Shown: positions 33,226-42,062 of the stretch, piece by piece | Position numbering within the stretch: position 1 is the stretch's first letter | Layout of the letters: each line of letters starts with the position of its first letter | Source: Burkholderiales bacterium | Lineage (GTDB): Bacteria; Pseudomonadota; Gammaproteobacteria; Burkholderiales; Burkholderiaceae_C | Length of the DNA stretch: 63,467 bases | Reading direction: 5' to 3' | NCBI GenBank assembly: GCA_025363275.1 | Contig: JANYEE010000263.1 | Location: 1 to 63,467 of the forward strand | Notes under the pieces: model-generated | Seen by the model: the letters and a program-made list of their open reading frames with translations, nothing else | The model's database searches: none | Told to the model about the DNA's origin: nothing | Translations under genes and position numbers: made by a program

Positions 33226-33242
33226 ATTCCGCTGACCTCCGT

Positions 33243-33259
33243 TTCCCTGCAGGAAACAT
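33243..33259. promoter_or_regulatory. Palindrome in the odhA leader
   Basis: The inverted repeat GTTTCC-(CTGCA)-GGAAAC lies just upstream of the odhA Shine-Dalgarno sequence. It could be an operator or an mRNA hairpin affecting translation. No matching regulator is identified. Confidence 0.4.
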
Positions 33260-33416
33260 TAGCTGGTTAAAGCTGTTTAAATTAACCTTCCGCGACACGG
33301 CTGAACCGATATGCGGATGCGACTGTGGCATGGGAAGGGCCTAGTTACTGCACACATTGTGCCACTGAAACGATGGCAGTGAAACTATGCTGTAGCTGCT
33401 GAGGTGCGACCCAAAA

Positions 33417-33468: not shown

Positions 33469-33545
33469 TGGTCGGTGTGAAAGGATTCGAACCTTCGACC
33501 CCTTGCACCCCATGCAAGTGCGCTACCAGGCTGCGCCACACACCG
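33469..33545 (-). tRNA. tRNA-Pro (anticodon GGG)
   Basis: Read on the minus strand the gene begins CGGTGTG and ends CACACCG-A-CCA, giving a 7-bp acceptor stem with the C1-G72 pair of bacterial tRNA-Pro. D arm GCGCAGCCTGGTAGCGC; anticodon stem CTTGC/GCAAG with loop ATGGGGT, so the anticodon is GGG; T arm with GGTTCGAATCC. It is 77 nt with CCA encoded. It reads CCC and CCU proline codons and follows the MerR-type gene. Confidence 0.96.
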
Positions 33546-34509: not shown

Positions 34510-36957
34510 TCAAACGCGCTGGCGGGCAGCAACCGCCGCCGCCAGTTGGTCCACCACGGCTTTCACCGCAGTTTCGATTTGCTCCTCGGTCAAGGTCGCT
34601 TCGTCGCTGTTGAGCGTCAGGCGCAAGGCCAGGCTGCGGTCAGTTGCACCGTCCGCTGCCACCACATCCTTAGTCGGCTTGGGACGGTAGACATCGAACA
34701 GGTGCGCATCACGCAGCAGGCCGAATGTCGGTGCTGCCCAAACTGCGGCCATCAGCGCAGTGTGGGTCACGCTGTCGCCCACCACAACGGCGATGTCGCG
34801 TTGCACGGCCTGGAACTTGGCCACCGACTTGAATTCGGGCACTGGGCGGGCTAACACGGCATCTAGTGCCAGCTCAAACACCACGGGCGCTGTCGCCAGC
34901 TCGTAGGACTGGCGCCACTTGGGGTGCAACTCACCCACATGGCCAATCACCTTGCAGCCTAGCACCACCTGCGCGCAGCGGCCAGGGTGCATGGCAGGAT
35001 GGGAACCCGGCGCAAACTCGGCTTTCAGCGGCGCCAGCAAGGCTTCGACATCGCCCTTAGCGTCGAAGAAGTCCACACCCTGCTCATTGCGGCCCCACTG
35101 CAGCGCATCTGCACTGCCGCTTACCAAGCCGGCGATGCGCATGGGTTGGTCAAAGCCTTCCACCGTCGCGTCGGTACTTTTGACGGAAGCATCGCGCAGA
35201 AACACGCGGCCTAGCTCAAACACACGCACGCGCGGTGACTTGCGAGCGGCATTGAAGCGCAACACCTGCAATAGTGAACCGATCAGCGATGAGCGCATCA
35301 CGCTCATTTGACTGGCTATTGGGTTTAACAGCTTGATGGGCTTGGAGTTGCCGGCCAATTCATACTCCCAGCGCTCTTCCACAAAGCTGAAATTAATGGT
35401 TTCCTGGTAACCCAGAGCAGCCAGCGCGCGACGCACGGCAAACGGGCTACGCTGCGCTTCCGCACGGATCTTGGCCGTGATGGGTGCCAACGGTGGCGTG
35501 TGCGGTAGGTTGTTATAGCCCACCATACGCGCCACTTCTTCTATCAGGTCTTCTTCGATCAGCAGGTCGAAGCGGTAGGACGGGGGCGTGACGGTGACCG
35601 TACCTTCGCCCTCGGTCACCGTCAAGCCGAGACGTTTCAAGGAGTCTGCGCACTGCGCCTGGGTCAGCGGCATGCCGATGACCTTGACAGCACGCGCCAC
35701 GCGCAAAGTGACCGGTGCTGGTGCGGGCACATTGACTATTTGGTCATCCACGGGTCCGCAGGTGGTGGCTGGAGTTCCGCAGATATCGATGATTAGTTGC
35801 GTGATGCGCTCGATGTGCTCCACGGTCAAAGCGGGGTCCACACCGCGCTCAAAACGGTGTCCCGCATCAGTGGAGAAGTTGAAGCGGCGCGAACGTCCAG
35901 CGATCGACTTGGGCCACCAGAAGGCGGCTTCCACATAAATGTGCTGGGTGTTGTCGGACACGGCGGTGGCGTCACCGCCCATGATTCCGGCGAGAGACTC
36001 CACTTGGGAATCGTCGGCAATCACGCCAACCTTTTCGTCCACCGTGACTGTATTGCCGCTGAGCAACTTGAGCTGTTCGCCCGCTCCATTCACGATACGG
36101 CCCCAGCGCACGTCCAAACCACCATGGATCTTGTCCAGATCGAAAATGTGCGACGGGCGGCCCAGCTCGAACATCACGTAGTTAGAAATGTCGACTAGCG
36201 GGGTAACGCTGCGCTGGCCACAACGGGCCAGGCGGTCCACCATCCATTGGGGGGTCCTGGCTTTGGTGTTGACGTTGCGCACCACGCGGCCAGAGAAGCG
36301 GCCACACAGATCAGGGGCGCTGATCTTCACGACCACCTTGTCTTGATTCGTCAAAGTCACGGGAATAATAGGTGCGGTGACTAGCGGCGCGCCGGTCAGC
36401 GCAGCCACTTCACGCGCCACGCCATAAATGCTCAGGCAATGCGCCAGGTTGGGCGTGAGCTTCAGGGTGAACAGTGTGTCATCCAGATCCAGGTACTGGC
36501 GAATGTCGAGCCCCAATGGGGCATCTAATGGCAGCTCCAGCAGGCCGCCATGGTCTTCGGACAGCTTGAGCTCGTGCGCCGAGCACAGCATGCCCTCGCT
36601 TTCCACGCCACGCAGTTTGCCGACCTTGATCAGGAAAGGCTTGCCGTCCTCACCGGGCGGCATCTCGGCGCCGACCAACGCGCAAGGAACGCGGATGCCA
36701 ACGCGGGCATTCGGCGCGCCGCAAACGATATTTAACAACTCGGACTGGCCCACATCCACCTTGCAGACGCGCAGGCGGTCGGCATTGGGGTGCTGCTCGG
36801 CTTCCTTGATCTCGCCGACCACGATCTTGGTGAACGGTGGCGCGACGGGCTTGAGCTCTTCGACCTCGAGCCCTGCCATGGTGAGCGTCTCCGCCAGCTC
36901 GGCGGTGGAGATGGAGGGGTTGCAGAAGGTACGCAGCCAGGATTCAGAAAATTGCAT
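34510..36957 (-). CDS. pheT: Phenylalanyl-tRNA synthetase beta subunit
   Basis: 815 aa. The EMAP-like tRNA-binding domain (residues ~40-150; HPNADRLRVCKVDVGQ) is followed by B3/B4 (editing), B5 (LIEEVARMVGYNNLP region) and the catalytic-like core. The C-terminal FDX-ACB domain (KFQAVQRDIAVVVGDSVTH) binds the anticodon. It follows pheS by 51 nt, with a weak SD. It forms the (alpha-beta)2 enzyme with PheS. Confidence 0.97.
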   Translation of the reverse strand: MQFSESWLRTFCNPSISTAELAETLTMAGLEVEELKPVAPPFTKIVVGEIKEAEQHPNADRLRVCKVDVGQSELLNIVCGAPNARVGIRVPCALVGAEMPPGEDGKPFLIKVGKLRGVESEGMLCSAHELKLSEDHGGLLELPLDAPLGLDIRQYLDLDDTLFTLKLTPNLAHCLSIYGVAREVAALTGAPLVTAPIIPVTLTNQDKVVVKISAPDLCGRFSGRVVRNVNTKARTPQWMVDRLARCGQRSVTPLVDISNYVMFELGRPSHIFDLDKIHGGLDVRWGRIVNGAGEQLKLLSGNTVTVDEKVGVIADDSQVESLAGIMGGDATAVSDNTQHIYVEAAFWWPKSIAGRSRRFNFSTDAGHRFERGVDPALTVEHIERITQLIIDICGTPATTCGPVDDQIVNVPAPAPVTLRVARAVKVIGMPLTQAQCADSLKRLGLTVTEGEGTVTVTPPSYRFDLLIEEDLIEEVARMVGYNNLPHTPPLAPITAKIRAEAQRSPFAVRRALAALGYQETINFSFVEERWEYELAGNSKPIKLLNPIASQMSVMRSSLIGSLLQVLRFNAARKSPRVRVFELGRVFLRDASVKSTDATVEGFDQPMRIAGLVSGSADALQWGRNEQGVDFFDAKGDVEALLAPLKAEFAPGSHPAMHPGRCAQVVLGCKVIGHVGELHPKWRQSYELATAPVVFELALDAVLARPVPEFKSVAKFQAVQRDIAVVVGDSVTHTALMAAVWAAPTFGLLRDAHLFDVYRPKPTKDVVAADGATDRSLALRLTLNSDEATLTEEQIETAVKAVVDQLAAAVAARQRV

Positions 36958-37008
36958 GGTCAGTCAGGTGAGGTTTTTGGCGGTGGACGATGGCGAAGGC
37001 TTGTCGGT

Positions 37009-38079
37009 TTACTGGAACTGGGACAAGAAACGGATGTCACCATCAAAGAACAGTCGCAGGTCGTTCACGCCGTAGCGCAGCATGGTCAGTCGATCGGGCC
37101 CCATGCCAAAGGCAAAGCCGATGTATTTTTCAGGGTCCAGGCCCATGTTGCGGATCACGTTGGGGTGAACCTGTCCAGAGCCAGCCACCTCCAACCAGCG
37201 GCCAGCCAAAGGGCCGGTCTGGAACTGAATGTCAATCTCGGCGCTCGGCTCGGTGAACGGGAAAAAGCTGGGGCGAAAACGTAGCACTAGATCGTCCGAC
37301 TCGAAAAAGGTACGGCAGAAATCGGTGAAAACGAACTTCAAGTCCTTGAAGCTCACGTTCTCGCCCACCCACAGACCTTCGCATTGGTGGAACATGGGCG
37401 AGTGCGTGGCATCGCTGTCGACCCGGTAGGTACGGCCCGGTGCAATGACTCGGATTTCGGGCATATTACCGGAGAACAGACCGTCAGCGGCAGCACCTGC
37501 CGCAACGCGATGTGTTTTAACATGCTGCACTGCGTAGCGGATCTGCATGGGGCTGGTGTGGGTGCGCAACAGGTTGGGAGCAGTTTCCGATCCACCCTCC
37601 ACATAAAAGGTGTCGTGCATCGAGCGCGCGGGGTGATCTTCAGGGGTGTTAAGCGCCGTGAAGTTGAACCAATCGGATTCGATTTCTGGGCCCTCGGCCA
37701 CTTCAAAACCCATGGAGCCGAAGATGGCCTCGATGCGCTCCAGCGTCAACGACACAGGGTGCAAACCGCCCTGCCCGCGTAGACGCCCCGGGAGCGTCAC
37801 ATCCAGCGCTTCAGACTGAAGCTGCATTTGCAGCTCGGCATCGGCCAAGGCCTGACGACGTTCGGTCAGAGCTGCTTCAATCGCTTGTTTGGCCAAGTTG
37901 ATCGCGGCACCGGTTGACTTCTTCTCTTCCACACTGAGCGCAGCCATGCCCTTCATCAGCTCGGTCATGCGGCCGGACTTTCCCAAAAACAAGGCTTTGG
38001 CATTTTCCAGATCGGCAGGCGTCACGGCCTGCGCGAAGGCGGCTTTGGCGGTATCAACGATGGCATTCAGATCAGTCAT
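37009..38079 (-). CDS. pheS: Phenylalanyl-tRNA synthetase alpha subunit
   Basis: Class II catalytic subunit charging tRNA-Phe, 356 aa. An N-terminal coiled coil is followed by motif 1 region [26 protein letters not shown], motif 2 ([11 protein letters not shown]) and motif 3 ([18 protein letters not shown]). It is downstream of rplT, separated by a hairpin with a T5 tract (38106-38138) that may attenuate transcription. Confidence 0.97.
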
Positions 38080-38105
38080 GGGGTCAGATCGGTAGAAAAC
38101 TAATG

Positions 38106-38138
38106 AAAAAGGGCTAGTGCTCTCTCAAGCTCTAGCCC
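38106..38138 (-). terminator. Intra-operon terminator/attenuator between rplT and pheS
   Basis: On the minus strand GGGCTAG-A-GCT, a 6-base loop, AGC-A-CTAGCCC, then TTTTT. It is a good intrinsic terminator with 10 bp and one symmetrical mismatch, located 27 bases before pheS. E. coli has a Phe-rich leader peptide (pheM) here; I find no equivalent Phe-rich ORF. Confidence 0.68.
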
Positions 38139-38187
38139 CTGTTTCTGGTGCGCGAAGCGCTATTAAAAAATGGCGCTTTGCCGGGAA

Positions 38188-38547
38188 TCAAGCAGCCAGC
38201 TTGGCCTTGACTTGCTCCACGATGCCAGCAAAAGCCGCCATGTCATGAATCGCGATATCGCTGAGTACCTTACGGTCGATCTCGATATTGGCTTTCTTCA
38301 GACCGTTGGCAAACTGACTGTATGTCATGCCGCACTGACGTGCTGCAGCATTAATACGGGCAATCCACAACTGACGGAAGACACGTTTCTTGGTACGGCG
38401 GTCACGGTAGGCATATTGCCCAGCCTTCATTACCGCTTCTTTAGCGACGCGGAAGACATTACCGCGGCGGCCGCGAAAACCTTTAGCAAGGGCGAGAACT
38501 TTTTTGTGGCGGGCGCGAGCCGTTACACCACGTTTGACGCGAGGCAT
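38188..38547 (-). CDS. rplT: 50S ribosomal protein L20
   Basis: 119 aa, with the standard opening [30 protein letters not shown] and ending in the helical RNA-binding domain ([19 protein letters not shown]). It binds 23S rRNA early in assembly and in enterobacteria represses its own operon. AAGGAG lies 7 nt before the ATG. It follows rpmI by 25 nt. Confidence 0.98.
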
Positions 38548-38572
38548 TGAATTACTCCTTGTTCGTCGTTAA

Positions 38573-38776
38573 TTAAATACCCTGGCCTGGAAGCATCTGC
38601 GCCATATGACCCATATTGGTCGAATGGACAGCAGTTGAACCGCGCAAGTGGCGTTTATTTTTGGTGGTCTTCTTGGTCAAGATGTGACGTTTGAAGGCTT
38701 GACCGCGTTTAACGGTTCCACCTGGACGGACGCGGAAGCGTTTCTTCGCTGCGCTCTTGGTCTTCATTTTGGGCAT
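38573..38776 (-). CDS. rpmI: 50S ribosomal protein L35
   Basis: 67 aa, highly basic, opening [20 protein letters not shown] and with the family [19 protein letters not shown] segment. AAGGAG is 7 nt before the ATG. The upstream gap to infC (192 nt) contains two hairpins that could be the site of ribosomal-protein feedback. Confidence 0.98.
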
Positions 38777-38968
38777 TTAAATGCTCCTTTTTCCTTGTGC
38801 TCGTGAGGCGTCTGGAAAACCCTTCCAGCCTTGTTGGCCCCGAGCCACTTAGTGAACAGGCCTTGAGAGCCGTTCCTTTTCAAATGATGCCTTGCGACAC
38901 TTCATTTGCGCAGCGGGTGTAAGCCCACCGCTTTCAGGTGGCACATCTTGCGATAGCCACAAAAATCC
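38777..38968 (-). promoter_or_regulatory. Structured infC-rpmI leader
   Basis: This 192-nt gap holds no ORF. On the minus strand it contains CTGGAA-GGGTT-TTCCAG (about 38815-38831) and a 7-bp stem with a bulge around AGCGG.TG/CACCGCT (38915-38935 region). Ribosomal-protein autoregulation through such structure is known in other bacteria; here it is an inference from position. Confidence 0.35.
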
Positions 38969-39562
38969 TTACGCTGCAATCTCTGGTGCTACTGGTTTAG
39001 TAGCGCCGCCCCCGGGCTTCTTTTTTCCCGGCGCAATCATCATGACCATCTGGCGGCCTTCCAGCTTGGGAAACTGCTCAACGACAATCAAATCAGCCAA
39101 ATCATCACGCATGCGGTTAAGCAGAGCCATGCCAATTTCTTGGTGAGTGATCTCCCGCCCCCTAAAGCGCAGAGTAATCTTGCACTTGTCACCGTCTGCC
39201 AAAAACCGCTTGATGTTGCGCAGCTTGATGTTGTAGTCGCCATCATCGGTTCCTGGACGGAACTTGACTTCCTTTATCTCGATAACCGTCTGCTTGGATT
39301 TCGCGTCTGCAGCCTTTTTCTGCTCTTGGTATTTGAACTTGCCGTAGTCCATCAACCGGCACACAGGCGGGTTAGCGGTAGCAGCAATTTCAACCAGATC
39401 AACATCCAGCTCACCCGCCATACGCAGGGCTTCCATCAGGCTGACGACACCTAGCGGCTCATTCTCCGGGCCCGATAAACGGACCTCTGGAGCCATGATT
39501 TCCCGGTTTAGGCGGTGTTTACGTTCTTCGCGCTGACGGCGGTCACGAAATTCAGTAGCGAT
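38969..39562 (-). CDS. infC: Translation initiation factor IF-3 with ATC start codon
   Basis: IF-3 binds the 30S subunit and polices start-codon choice. An ATG at 39496 would give only 175 aa and lose conserved N-terminal residues. The frame runs upstream without a stop through [20 protein letters not shown] to an ATC at 39562, and AAGGA (complement of 39570-39574) lies exactly 7 nt before that ATC. I therefore call a 197-aa protein starting at ATC. The rest is typical: [46 protein letters not shown] and [10 protein letters not shown]. Rare infC start codons (AUU in E. coli) are established and allow autoregulation. Confidence 0.9.
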
Positions 39563-39658: not shown

Positions 39659-41572
39659 TCATTGAACGGATTTGCTTACAATGTCACCCAGGATTTTCTG
39701 CACAAAGGCATCCAGGGGCATCACTCCAAGGTCTTGACCACCCCGGGCGCGCACTGCGACGGTTCCTGCTGCCATCTCTTTGTCACCAACAACAATCAAA
39801 TAAGGCAGCTTTCGCATCGAATGCTCTCTTATTTTATACGTAATTTTCTCATTGCGCAGGTCTAAATTGACCCTAAGCCCTTGATTTTGCAGCGTTTTAG
39901 CCACGGAACGCACGTAATCTGCCTGCGCGTCAGTGATGTTCAGGACTGCCACCTGGACCGGAGCAAGCCAGGCTGGCAGAGCGCCTGCACTCTCTTCAAT
40001 CAAGATTCCAATAAACCGCTCCAAGCTACCAACGATGGCACGGTGCAGCATCACAGGACGGTGACGCGCTCCGTCTTCGCCGACGTACTCAGCATCCAGA
40101 CGCTCCGGCATTGAGAAATCCACTTGCATCGTGCCGCACTGCCATTGACGGCCAATTGCGTCTTTGAGCGTGTATTCAATCTTGGGACCATAAAACGCGC
40201 CGTCACCCGGCGAAATTTCATACTCGCAGCCAGAAGCTTTAAGACTTTCAATCAGCGCGGCCTCTGCCTTATCCCAGCTTTCGTCCGAACCAATGCGCTT
40301 TTCGGGCCGCGTTGCAATCTTGTAGATGATATTTTTGAAGCCGAAATCGGTGTAAACCTTTTGCAGCAAAGCCGTGTAATCCACGCATTCCTTCAGGACT
40401 TGGTCTTCGGTACAGAAAATATGACCATCATCCTGGGTGAATCCACGTACGCGCATGATGCCGTGCAAGCCTCCTGAGGGCTCATTGCGGTGGCAGTTTC
40501 CAAACTCCCCGTATCGCAGTGGCAAATCGCGGTAGCTCTTGATGCCTTGCTTGAAAATCAAGATGTGGCCAGGACAATTCATCGGCTTGAGCGCGTACTC
40601 TCGCTTTTCCGATTCCGTGATGAACATGTTTTCGCGGTACTTGTCCCAGTGGCCCGTTTTCTCCCACAGACTCTTGTCGATGATCTGCGGGCCTTTGACT
40701 TCCTGGTAGCCGTTGTCCTGATAAACCTTACGCATGTACTGCTCTACGCCCTGCCACAAGGTCCAACCCTTGGGATGCCAGAACACCAAACCTGGCGCAT
40801 GCTCGTCTATGTGAAACAGATCGAGCTCACGGCCCAACTTGCGGTGGTCGCGCTTTTCGGCCTCTTCCAGCATGGTCAAATGCTGCTGCAACTCATCCTT
40901 GGTCGCCCAGGCTGTGCCATAAATACGCTGCAGCATTTCATTTTTGTGGTCACCACGCCAGTAGGCACCGGCTAGCTTCATCAGCTTGAAATGCTTGAGC
41001 TTTCCAGTGCTGGGCACGTGCGGGCCGCGGCACAAATCTTCGAACTTGCCTTCGCGGTACAGAGATACGTCCTGGTCAGCCGGAATGCTCTCGATGATCT
41101 CGGCCTTGTAGTGCTCACCGAGACTCTTGAAATAAGCCACGGCTTCGTCGCGCGGTAGTACGCGGCGCGACACGGGCTCATCCAAAGACGCCAATTGCGT
41201 CATCTTCTTTTCAATGGCGGCCAGATCTTCGGGCGTAAACGGGCGCTTGTAGGAAAAGTCATAGAAGAAGCCATGCTCGATGACCGGACCAATCGTGACC
41301 TGCGCATCGGAGAATAGTTCCTTGACCGCATACGCCAGCAAGTGGGCTGTAGAGTGGCGAATGACTTCCAAACCATCCGTGTCCTTCGCGGTAATGATGG
41401 ACAGTGCGCTGTCCGCCTGCATTTGAAAGCTGGTGTCGACGACCGTACCGTCCACTTTGCCAGCCAAAGCGGCTTTGGCCAGTCCTGCACCAATGGATGC
41501 AGCGACTTCGGCCACTGTCACGGGGCCGGGAAATTCGCGTTTTGAACCGTCGGGAAGCGTAATGTTGATCAT
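39659..41572 (-). CDS. thrS: Threonyl-tRNA synthetase
   Basis: Class II synthetase, ~637 aa. TGS domain ([20 protein letters not shown]), editing domain with the [11 protein letters not shown] zinc-like motif, catalytic core with [12 protein letters not shown], motif 2 ([21 protein letters not shown]) and motif 3 ([18 protein letters not shown]), then the anticodon-binding domain. The start ATG 41572 is placed by family alignment; the frame runs on upstream through the attenuator, and no good SD is seen. It heads thrS-infC-rpmI-rplT-pheST, and its leader carries a predicted threonine attenuator. Confidence 0.96.
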
Positions 41573-41615
41573 GGTGTGGTCTGAGAAGAGGTTGGCAGAA
41601 AAGCAAAAATCGCGC

Positions 41616-41645
41616 AAAAAAAAACGCGGTTTAGTCCGCGCTTTA
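41616..41645 (-). terminator. Attenuator terminator hairpin upstream of thrS
   Basis: On the minus strand AAAG-CGCGG-ACTAAA-CCGCG-TTTTTTTTT: a 5-bp GC stem extended by a G-U and A-U pairs, followed by nine T residues, 44 bases before the thrS ATG. Its 5' arm (41633-41641) is also perfectly complementary over 9 bases to 41678-41686, so terminator and antiterminator exclude each other. Confidence 0.78.
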
Positions 41646-41690
41646 CTATGAATTTCGTAGCTGGCTGCGCACAAGGCGCGCGGACTTGCG
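41646..41690 (+). repeat. Head of dispersed repeat within thrS leader (degenerate)
   Basis: CTATGAATTTCGTAGCTG matches CTATGATTTTTGTAGCTG of copy B at 16 of 18 positions. It is followed by a GC-rich hairpin (41667-41681) in the place where intact copies carry the CCAGG/CCTGG arms. The 3' part is not recognisable. Confidence 0.42.
41678..41686 (-). promoter_or_regulatory. Antiterminator arm of the thrS attenuator
   Basis: Minus-strand AGTCCGCGC is the exact reverse complement of GCGCGGACT, the 5' side of the thrS terminator. It begins only 7 bases after the leader-peptide stop codon. A ribosome reaching that stop would mask it, whereas one stalled at the Thr codons would not. Confidence 0.65.
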
Positions 41691-41692
41691 GC

Positions 41693-41734
41693 CTATTCGC
41701 CTAACAATATCGACGCAGTGGTTCGCGGTGTCAT
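41693..41734 (-). CDS. Predicted threonine leader peptide of thrS (13 aa)
   Basis: The ORF reads ATG ACA CCG CGA ACC ACT GCG TCG ATA TTG TTA GGC GAA TAG (MTPRTTASILLGE). Three of 13 residues are Thr, two adjacent. An AAAGG sequence lies 10 bases upstream. It ends 7 bases before the antiterminator arm, the spacing expected for transcription attenuation by ribosome stalling. No homology search was possible; the call rests on arrangement. Confidence 0.6.
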   Translation of the reverse strand: MTPRTTASILLGE

Positions 41735-41799
41735 AACCAGATTGCCTTTCTCGCTCTTGTACAAAATGGATGGTGTGATTTTAACCCACAGTTATCCAG

Positions 41800-41990
41800 C
41801 TAAATGCCAGCGACCCAAGACGTCGTAGATGCCCGGCCCATATGACTGCCGATCAGCAGAACTCCCTCGCGTGCCAGCGCAGGGGCTCCATCGCACGCTC
41901 CGTGCACACAAGGTGCCACTGACCACCGCAATCGCAACGGTACTTTCTGGCGCGGGAAAGGCGGAGAAAAGCAGCGAAAGCTGTTAGCTG
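41800..41990 (-). other. ORF-like remnant downstream of the aceA terminator
   Basis: A ~62-codon stop-free minus-strand frame ending at TAG 41800-41802 has no ATG near its beginning and no SD. Its translation includes RQKVPLRLRWSVAPCVHG and REGVLLIGSHMGRASTTSW. I cannot assign a family; it may be a gene fragment or part of a repeated sequence. Confidence 0.3.
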
Positions 41991-42010
41991 TTTTTTACTC
42001 TCGTCAAAGT

Positions 42011-42044
42011 AAAAGGCCAGCCTCCTTGCGGAGGCTGGCCTTCG
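42011..42044 (-). terminator. Terminator of aceA
   Basis: A perfect 11-bp stem, GGCCAGCCTCC-TTGC-GGAGGCTGGCC (42015-42040), followed on the minus strand by TTTTACTTT. It lies 19 bases beyond the aceA stop. Confidence 0.88.
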
Positions 42045-42062
42045 GTTATCTAAGCAATCGGT

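Follow-up and report, generated by a model that had tools for sequence, protein, structure and literature searches.

Predicted leader-peptide attenuation of the threonyl-tRNA synthetase gene in Burkholderiales

The thrS gene of the Burkholderiales sequence studied here is preceded by a short leader which very probably controls it by ribosome-mediated transcription attenuation, with charged tRNA-Thr as the signal. The leader has the parts of such a device, these parts are conserved, and its two main pairings are mutually exclusive. Because the same layout recurs in many related bacteria, we consider the prediction a strong one. An initial annotation had already interpreted this leader as an attenuator, and the sequences of relatives, which keep the Thr codons, the leader start, the antiterminator arm and the terminator, speak in favour of that interpretation.

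Organization of the thrS leader

By "the window" we mean the whole stretch of DNA that was analysed (63,467 nucleotides). Direct reading of its minus strand gives, from 5′ to 3′, a 13-codon open reading frame (ORF), an antiterminator arm, an intrinsic terminator and thrS. The features are as follows:

41778..41783, minus strand: candidate -10 hexamer TAAAAT (from sequence), with a transcript start predicted near 41771
41745..41752, minus strand: leader Shine-Dalgarno stretch GAGAAAGG, conserved in an alignment of 80 leaders
41721..41738, minus strand: near-invariant block GGTTATGACACCGCGAAC, from four bases 5′ of the ATG through codon 5
41693..41734, minus strand: leader ORF MTPRTTASILLGE, with Thr codons 2, 5 and 6
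41678..41686, minus strand: antiterminator 5′ arm (region 2) AGTCCGCGC, from computed pairing
41667..41681, minus strand: local hairpin GCGCGC-CTT-GTGCGC, a competitor of the antiterminator, from folding
41633..41641, minus strand: region 3 GCGCGGACT, the antiterminator 3′ arm, overlapping the terminator 5′ arm
41616..41644, minus strand: intrinsic terminator hairpin and T9 tract, from sequence reading and a terminator scan
39659..41572, minus strand: thrS, threonine--tRNA ligase (TIGR00418, 736.7 bits)
34510..39562, minus strand: infC, rpmI, rplT, pheS and pheT (NCBIfam), downstream of thrS in a possible operon

The ORF reads ATG-ACA-CCG-CGA-ACC-ACT-...-TAG, and its Thr codons ACA, ACC and ACT are present as originally described. 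The reported 9-base complementarity of regions 2 and 3 is exact as well, but the arm begins six bases after the stop codon and not seven. The GC hairpin with its T tract ahead of thrS was also confirmed: the terminator is AAAGCGCGG-ACTAAA-CCGCGTTTT, with nine consecutive T, and the distance from the T tract to the thrS ATG (41572, minus strand) is only 43 nt. Within the Shine-Dalgarno stretch, AGAAAGG matches the 16S 3′ end. The window's own genome contains one block-like site.

In the proposed mechanism, RNA polymerase would make the leader RNA with a ribosome translating the short ORF at the same time. When Thr-tRNA is sufficient, this ribosome would arrive at the stop codon and cover region 2, which overlaps or closely follows that codon in the predicted leaders; region 3 would then pair with region 4, and transcription would end at the U tract. 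With Thr-tRNA scarce, the ribosome would stall at Thr codons 2, 5 or 6, leaving region 2 free to pair with region 3, and transcription would continue into thrS. Leader translation and stalling, premature termination, a response to threonine and an effect on the downstream genes are all predictions of this scheme. Such a layout would let the cell make more ThrRS when threonine is short.

From the window sequence alone, the layout stands out from chance only partly; it does so far more once relatives are taken into account. The region of the window folds no better than its shuffles (z -0.56), and of 1000 shuffles that roughly preserve dinucleotides, 25 contain a 9-base stretch complementary to the terminator arm.

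Conservation of the leader ORF and its Thr codons

We compared the sequences upstream of thrS in related genomes. From the window's family (f1), 150 genomes were sampled, 149 of which have thrS, and the upstreams of 130 of these were used (30 loci, including the window's own, and 100 more). A named collection supplied the best 80 of 586 loci, from which two starting inside thrS were dropped; except for two Ralstonia, these loci were counted with f1 without a family check. A second family (f8), of which 60 genomes were sampled, contributed 51 upstreams (30 loci, 20 more and one obtained separately). Nine upstreams that duplicated another over the last 140 nt were taken out, although near-identical pairs may persist, and 250 distinct upstreams were left, among them that of the window. 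A third family (f32) provided 30 loci from 41 genomes, with 28 readable upstreams. Since the sequences are related, the counts that follow are not independent.

A leader start within 5 mismatches of the 21-nt sequence GGTTATGACACCGCGAACTAC was found in 203 of the 250 upstreams (158/197 in f1, 43/51 in f8 and 2/2 in Ralstonia), with 130 exact matches; the misses include L221, for which a wrong start was taken. It is found in some members each of the named Rhodoferax, Polaromonas, Acidovorax, Delftia, Comamonas and Hydrogenophaga as well as Rubrivivax, Roseateles, Leptothrix, Sphaerotilus and Ottowia. The two Ralstonia leaders read MIQAPRTTTASERQ.

Among these 203 leaders, Thr is encoded at codon 2 in 197, at codon 5 in 202, at codon 6 in 151 and at codon 7 in 103, and at least three Thr occur in 181. 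From codon 6 on, the wobble position is free. Between there and the end of the ORF, Thr is the commonest residue (431 of 1782 codons, or 24.2% vs 7.6% in shuffles, a 3.2-fold enrichment), followed by Arg with 183; in the other two frames its share is 1.5% and 4.2%. The same codons are also enriched in Phe (3.1 fold) and Glu (2.2 fold). An excess of cognate codons is one of the features expected of an attenuator, and so is the short ORF 5′ of thrS with its predicted start, Shine-Dalgarno stretch and stop.

It is worth asking whether the terminator might simply belong to the gene upstream, with the ORF arising by chance. In the window, aceA lies upstream of the leader on the same strand as thrS. 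In examples from f8 and f32, the leader is preceded by a tRNA-Val gene, whose end lies 24 to about 95 nt 5′ of the block in L216, L346 and L107, and a terminator there could belong to that gene. However, aceA is followed by a strong hairpin and four T of its own at 42040-42011, seen by eye and absent from the terminator scan output, and -10-like hexamers peak just 5′ of the leader, 48-51 nt from its ATG in the f1 set. Moreover, a chance ORF would not keep its frame, Shine-Dalgarno stretch and Thr codons across families. We find such an origin barely credible.

A near-invariant leader start

From four bases 5′ of the ATG through codon 5, the nucleotide sequence hardly varies, even at wobble positions: codon 2 is ACA in 195 of the 203 leaders, codon 3 CCG in 201, codon 4 CGA in 194 and codon 5 ACT in 178. 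Judged by these sequences, the leader start is more conserved than the peptide or the Thr codons would require.

Complementarity of the last 11 nt of the block to the terminator 5′ arm exceeds that of shuffled blocks in 139/141 f1 and 37/43 f8 leaders. The same 11 nt exceed shuffles against region 2 in f1 (121/141) but not in f8 (24/43). The first 10 nt show no pairing beyond shuffles, either with region 2 (74/141 in f1 and 25/43 in f8) or with the terminator arm (49/141 and 1/43, respectively).

A factor, perhaps ThrRS as at E. coli thrS, might recognise the block as an RNA or DNA site, and the ORF would then be incidental. This would explain why the wobble positions of codons 2 to 5 and the four bases 5′ of the ATG are nearly fixed, and it agrees with the observation that GGTTATGACA has no better partner in the leader than its shuffled versions. 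A factor site would not, however, account for the Thr enrichment in the variable codons past the block. In f32, furthermore, the block changes while the frame, the Thr codons and region 2 stay, and two Thr-run leaders of different sequence occur. We therefore regard this explanation as improbable.

Sinorhizobium offers a precedent of another kind, as its trp leader RNA acts in trans. A trp leader peptide does so too (PMC7298713). The invariant 5′ part, which pairing within the leader does not explain, would likewise suit a terminated leader RNA or peptide that acts mainly in trans, with attenuation being secondary. Yet in a crude test, near-complements of the block numbered 93 in 41 genomes (own sites included) vs 206 for a backwards control, and we think a main role in trans very improbable.

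Under leader-peptide attenuation, which we prefer, GGTTATGACACCGCGAAC may still serve as a second, nucleotide-level signal besides the Thr codons, one that the initiating ribosome or a factor such as ThrRS reads or that the terminated leader RNA carries in trans, and thrS of this order would then be under two linked controls. We offer this tentatively, as a possibility that is rather less than probable. If it were true, relatives without the leader, in which a terminator lies about 20 nt behind the candidate start, would represent control without a leader peptide.

Terminator and antiterminator in relatives

A terminator-like hairpin is present 3′ of the block in 200 of 203 leaders vs 27 of 203 reversed-sequence controls; an intrinsic terminator between leader and thrS is what one expects of an attenuator. 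In f8, the terminator stem is 98.5% paired over 42 leaders, and its covariation score was reached by 0 of 500 shuffles.

The stretch around the leader stop codon pairs with the terminator 5′ arm and loop. By eye, GCTAGTCG (where TAG is the stop) pairs with CGGCTAGT in f8, TCGAGG with CCTCGA in many f32 members and CAAGG with CCTTG in Ralstonia. Over 221 leaders, the duplex of region 2 with the terminator arm has -14.5 kcal/mol for the leader's own arm vs -13.1 kcal/mol for permuted ones, and 0 of 1000 permutations were as good. Within families, permutations equalled the true assignment in 1/1000 cases for f1 and 0/1000 for f8; within two f32 groups, they gave no significant result (135/1000 and 940/1000). 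In 4 of 4 clades, region 2 finds its best average partner among the clade's own terminators, a comparison that is partly circular because two of the clades are f32 leaders split by terminator type (with the two Ralstonia added to one).

Compensatory changes in both stems, which the initial annotation had named as a check, were found in part. Arm and terminator co-vary between clades, and the f8 terminator stem covaries as described above, but the f8 antiterminator columns, with 91.0% paired cells vs 90.3% in shuffles and one double change, show no excess. Thus, the case for compensation is carried by the permutation test and the between-clade pattern. When the f8 antiterminator helix is slid out of register, at most 41% of the cells are paired vs 91%.

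Folding and predicted switching

In computation, the antiterminator excludes the terminator and would be masked by a ribosome at the stop codon, as is expected of an attenuator. With the stop codon in the A site, a ribosome of the usual footprint would presumably hide some five of the nine arm bases in the window.

In equilibrium folding of the full window leader, a stalled ribosome leaves the terminator ahead by about 3 to 4 kcal/mol; the terminator is preferred with the stall at either position tried and also without a ribosome. As the completed region 4 tips the balance to the terminator, the switch would have to be a kinetic one, and attenuators do usually decide kinetically. For this reason, transcripts ending before region 4 were folded instead. 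In the window, the probability of pairing between regions 2 and 3 in such transcripts is 0.79-0.88 with the ribosome stalled at Thr2 and 0.93-0.94 with the ribosome at Thr6.

The same trend is visible in relatives. At least 2 nt more of the terminator arm are paired upstream with a stalled ribosome than with one at the stop codon in 113 of 184 leaders, and the reverse is true for 5 of 184. These 184 are the 203 leaders minus those with long ORFs, with a terminator too near the stop or with no terminator.

Relatives without the leader

Conservation in close relatives, another check attached to the original proposal, stands for the Thr codons, the stop-proximal arm and the terminator. It is nevertheless patchy, because L002, a genome of the same genus, is without the leader. 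The block is absent from 47 of the 250 upstreams, L002 included, and the matches listed for 24 other genomes of the genus that were searched contain the exact block in 9.

Of 46 block-less upstreams examined, 33 have a terminator-like hairpin no more than 110 nt from thrS. In 19 of these 33, again including L002, a TAAAAT-like hexamer starts 17 to 35 nt 5′ of the hairpin, which would put the hairpin close to the 5′ end of the transcript. A search of the 47 block-less upstreams for another Thr-rich ATG ORF gave 0 hits. A thrS gene with the hairpin and no block suggests that the leader was lost repeatedly or that the hairpin has a use of its own. Together with the near-invariant leader start, these leaderless terminators are puzzles that go beyond the textbook attenuator.

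The hairpin begins 29-35 nt after the start of the hexamer, with no block, in L002, L032, L038, L050, L054, L055, L069, L070, L072, L080, L120, L134, L165 and L230.

Distribution beyond the window's family

In f32, a Thr leader with a terminator is present in 21 of 28 upstreams, and in several of these the start is altered, for example to MFLRTLTGTTKAS or MTLRTTPTTITERR. The remainder comprises five with no leader recognised and two (L332 and L355) with Thr-run leaders that differ in sequence (MTSVFSATTTTTTTPLAW and MTLFTDTHTTTTTVVAVIVAW) and are placed alike before thrS. Both have the stop codon inside the antiterminator arm. Complementarity between the stretch at the stop codon and the terminator arm extends over 10 nt in L332 (2/2000 shuffles) and 6 nt in L355 (110/2000).

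A 17-nt core with at most one mismatch occurs in 39 of 300 genomes of the order vs 3 for a backwards control. Ten of these loci were examined: thrS follows in five (in L301 by way of L345), four, each with one mismatch, are at unrelated positions, and in L320 a leader and a terminator precede a gene that the pattern used did not recognise. A 46-nt sequence model has matches in 33 of 250 genomes of the order, and thrS follows in 15 of the 19 loci examined (L276-L294). Eleven of these leaders, from other families of the order (f35, f47, f39 and f3), keep MTPRT; Thr is at codon 6 in 0/11, and 7/11 have only Thr2 and Thr5. In L290-L292, MTPLTT forms lie 5′ of a terminator; thrS was recognised downstream in L291 alone. 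When 229 genomes of the class were searched, matches came from three genomes of the window's family and from three outside it, the latter without thrS behind the match.

A tRNA-Val (gac) gene precedes the leader or terminator of thrS in 9 of 9 f8, f32 and Ralstonia loci scanned (L216, L346, L107, L330, L332, L334, L336, L341 and L355).

Comparison with known systems

The leader-peptide attenuators of E. coli pheST, thrABC and trp share with the thrS leader a short ORF with cognate codons, a stop near the antiterminator arm, an antiterminator that competes with an intrinsic terminator and a cognate downstream gene. The differences are that the target here is thrS, that many members have only two or three Thr codons, and that the leader start is nearly invariant at the nucleotide level across families. 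By the features tested, the thrS leader belongs to the ribosome-mediated attenuators.

E. coli thrS itself is controlled differently: ThrRS binds its own mRNA at tRNA-like stem-loops around the ribosome-binding site and blocks translation. The gene and the presumed signal are the same, whereas the anatomy seen in the window is transcriptional and ribosome-dependent. In the T-box leaders of aminoacyl-tRNA synthetase genes in Firmicutes, uncharged tRNA drives transcription read-through, as would be the case here, but here the sensing would be done by the ribosome.

No Rfam 15 family was matched at the site or at the leaders of seven relatives. The T-box covariance models had no match in the window or in those seven leaders, and RF00506 (Thr_leader; gathering threshold 55 bits) had none at the site, with a weak match of 18.5 bits (E 0.75) on the other strand at 41961-42048. 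By the searches made, the leader is neither Rfam Thr_leader nor a T-box.

PMC1262725 mentions pheST and the Streptomyces genes trpS and leuS in connection with leader-peptide attenuation. In the literature searched, which included a minority of the subscription papers, we came across no account of a leader peptide for thrS in this order; as a sign of absence this is weak evidence. If our reading is correct, thrS of many members of a large bacterial order would join the genes attenuated by a leader peptide.

Genes downstream of thrS

Since the genes for IF3, L35, L20 and PheRS follow thrS on the same strand, a single charged tRNA could, given co-transcription, determine how much of several translation factors is available.

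The infC frame stays open for 22 codons 5′ of its first ATG (39496), up to an ATC codon (39562-39560, minus strand) which is preceded by a GAAGGA stretch. This ATC is probably a non-standard start, reminiscent of E. coli infC, which starts at AUU. Farther along, the window contains a sucA RNA motif (RF01070, 74.9 bits) at 33230-33322 on the minus strand and a tRNA-Pro (ggg) gene at 33469-33545.
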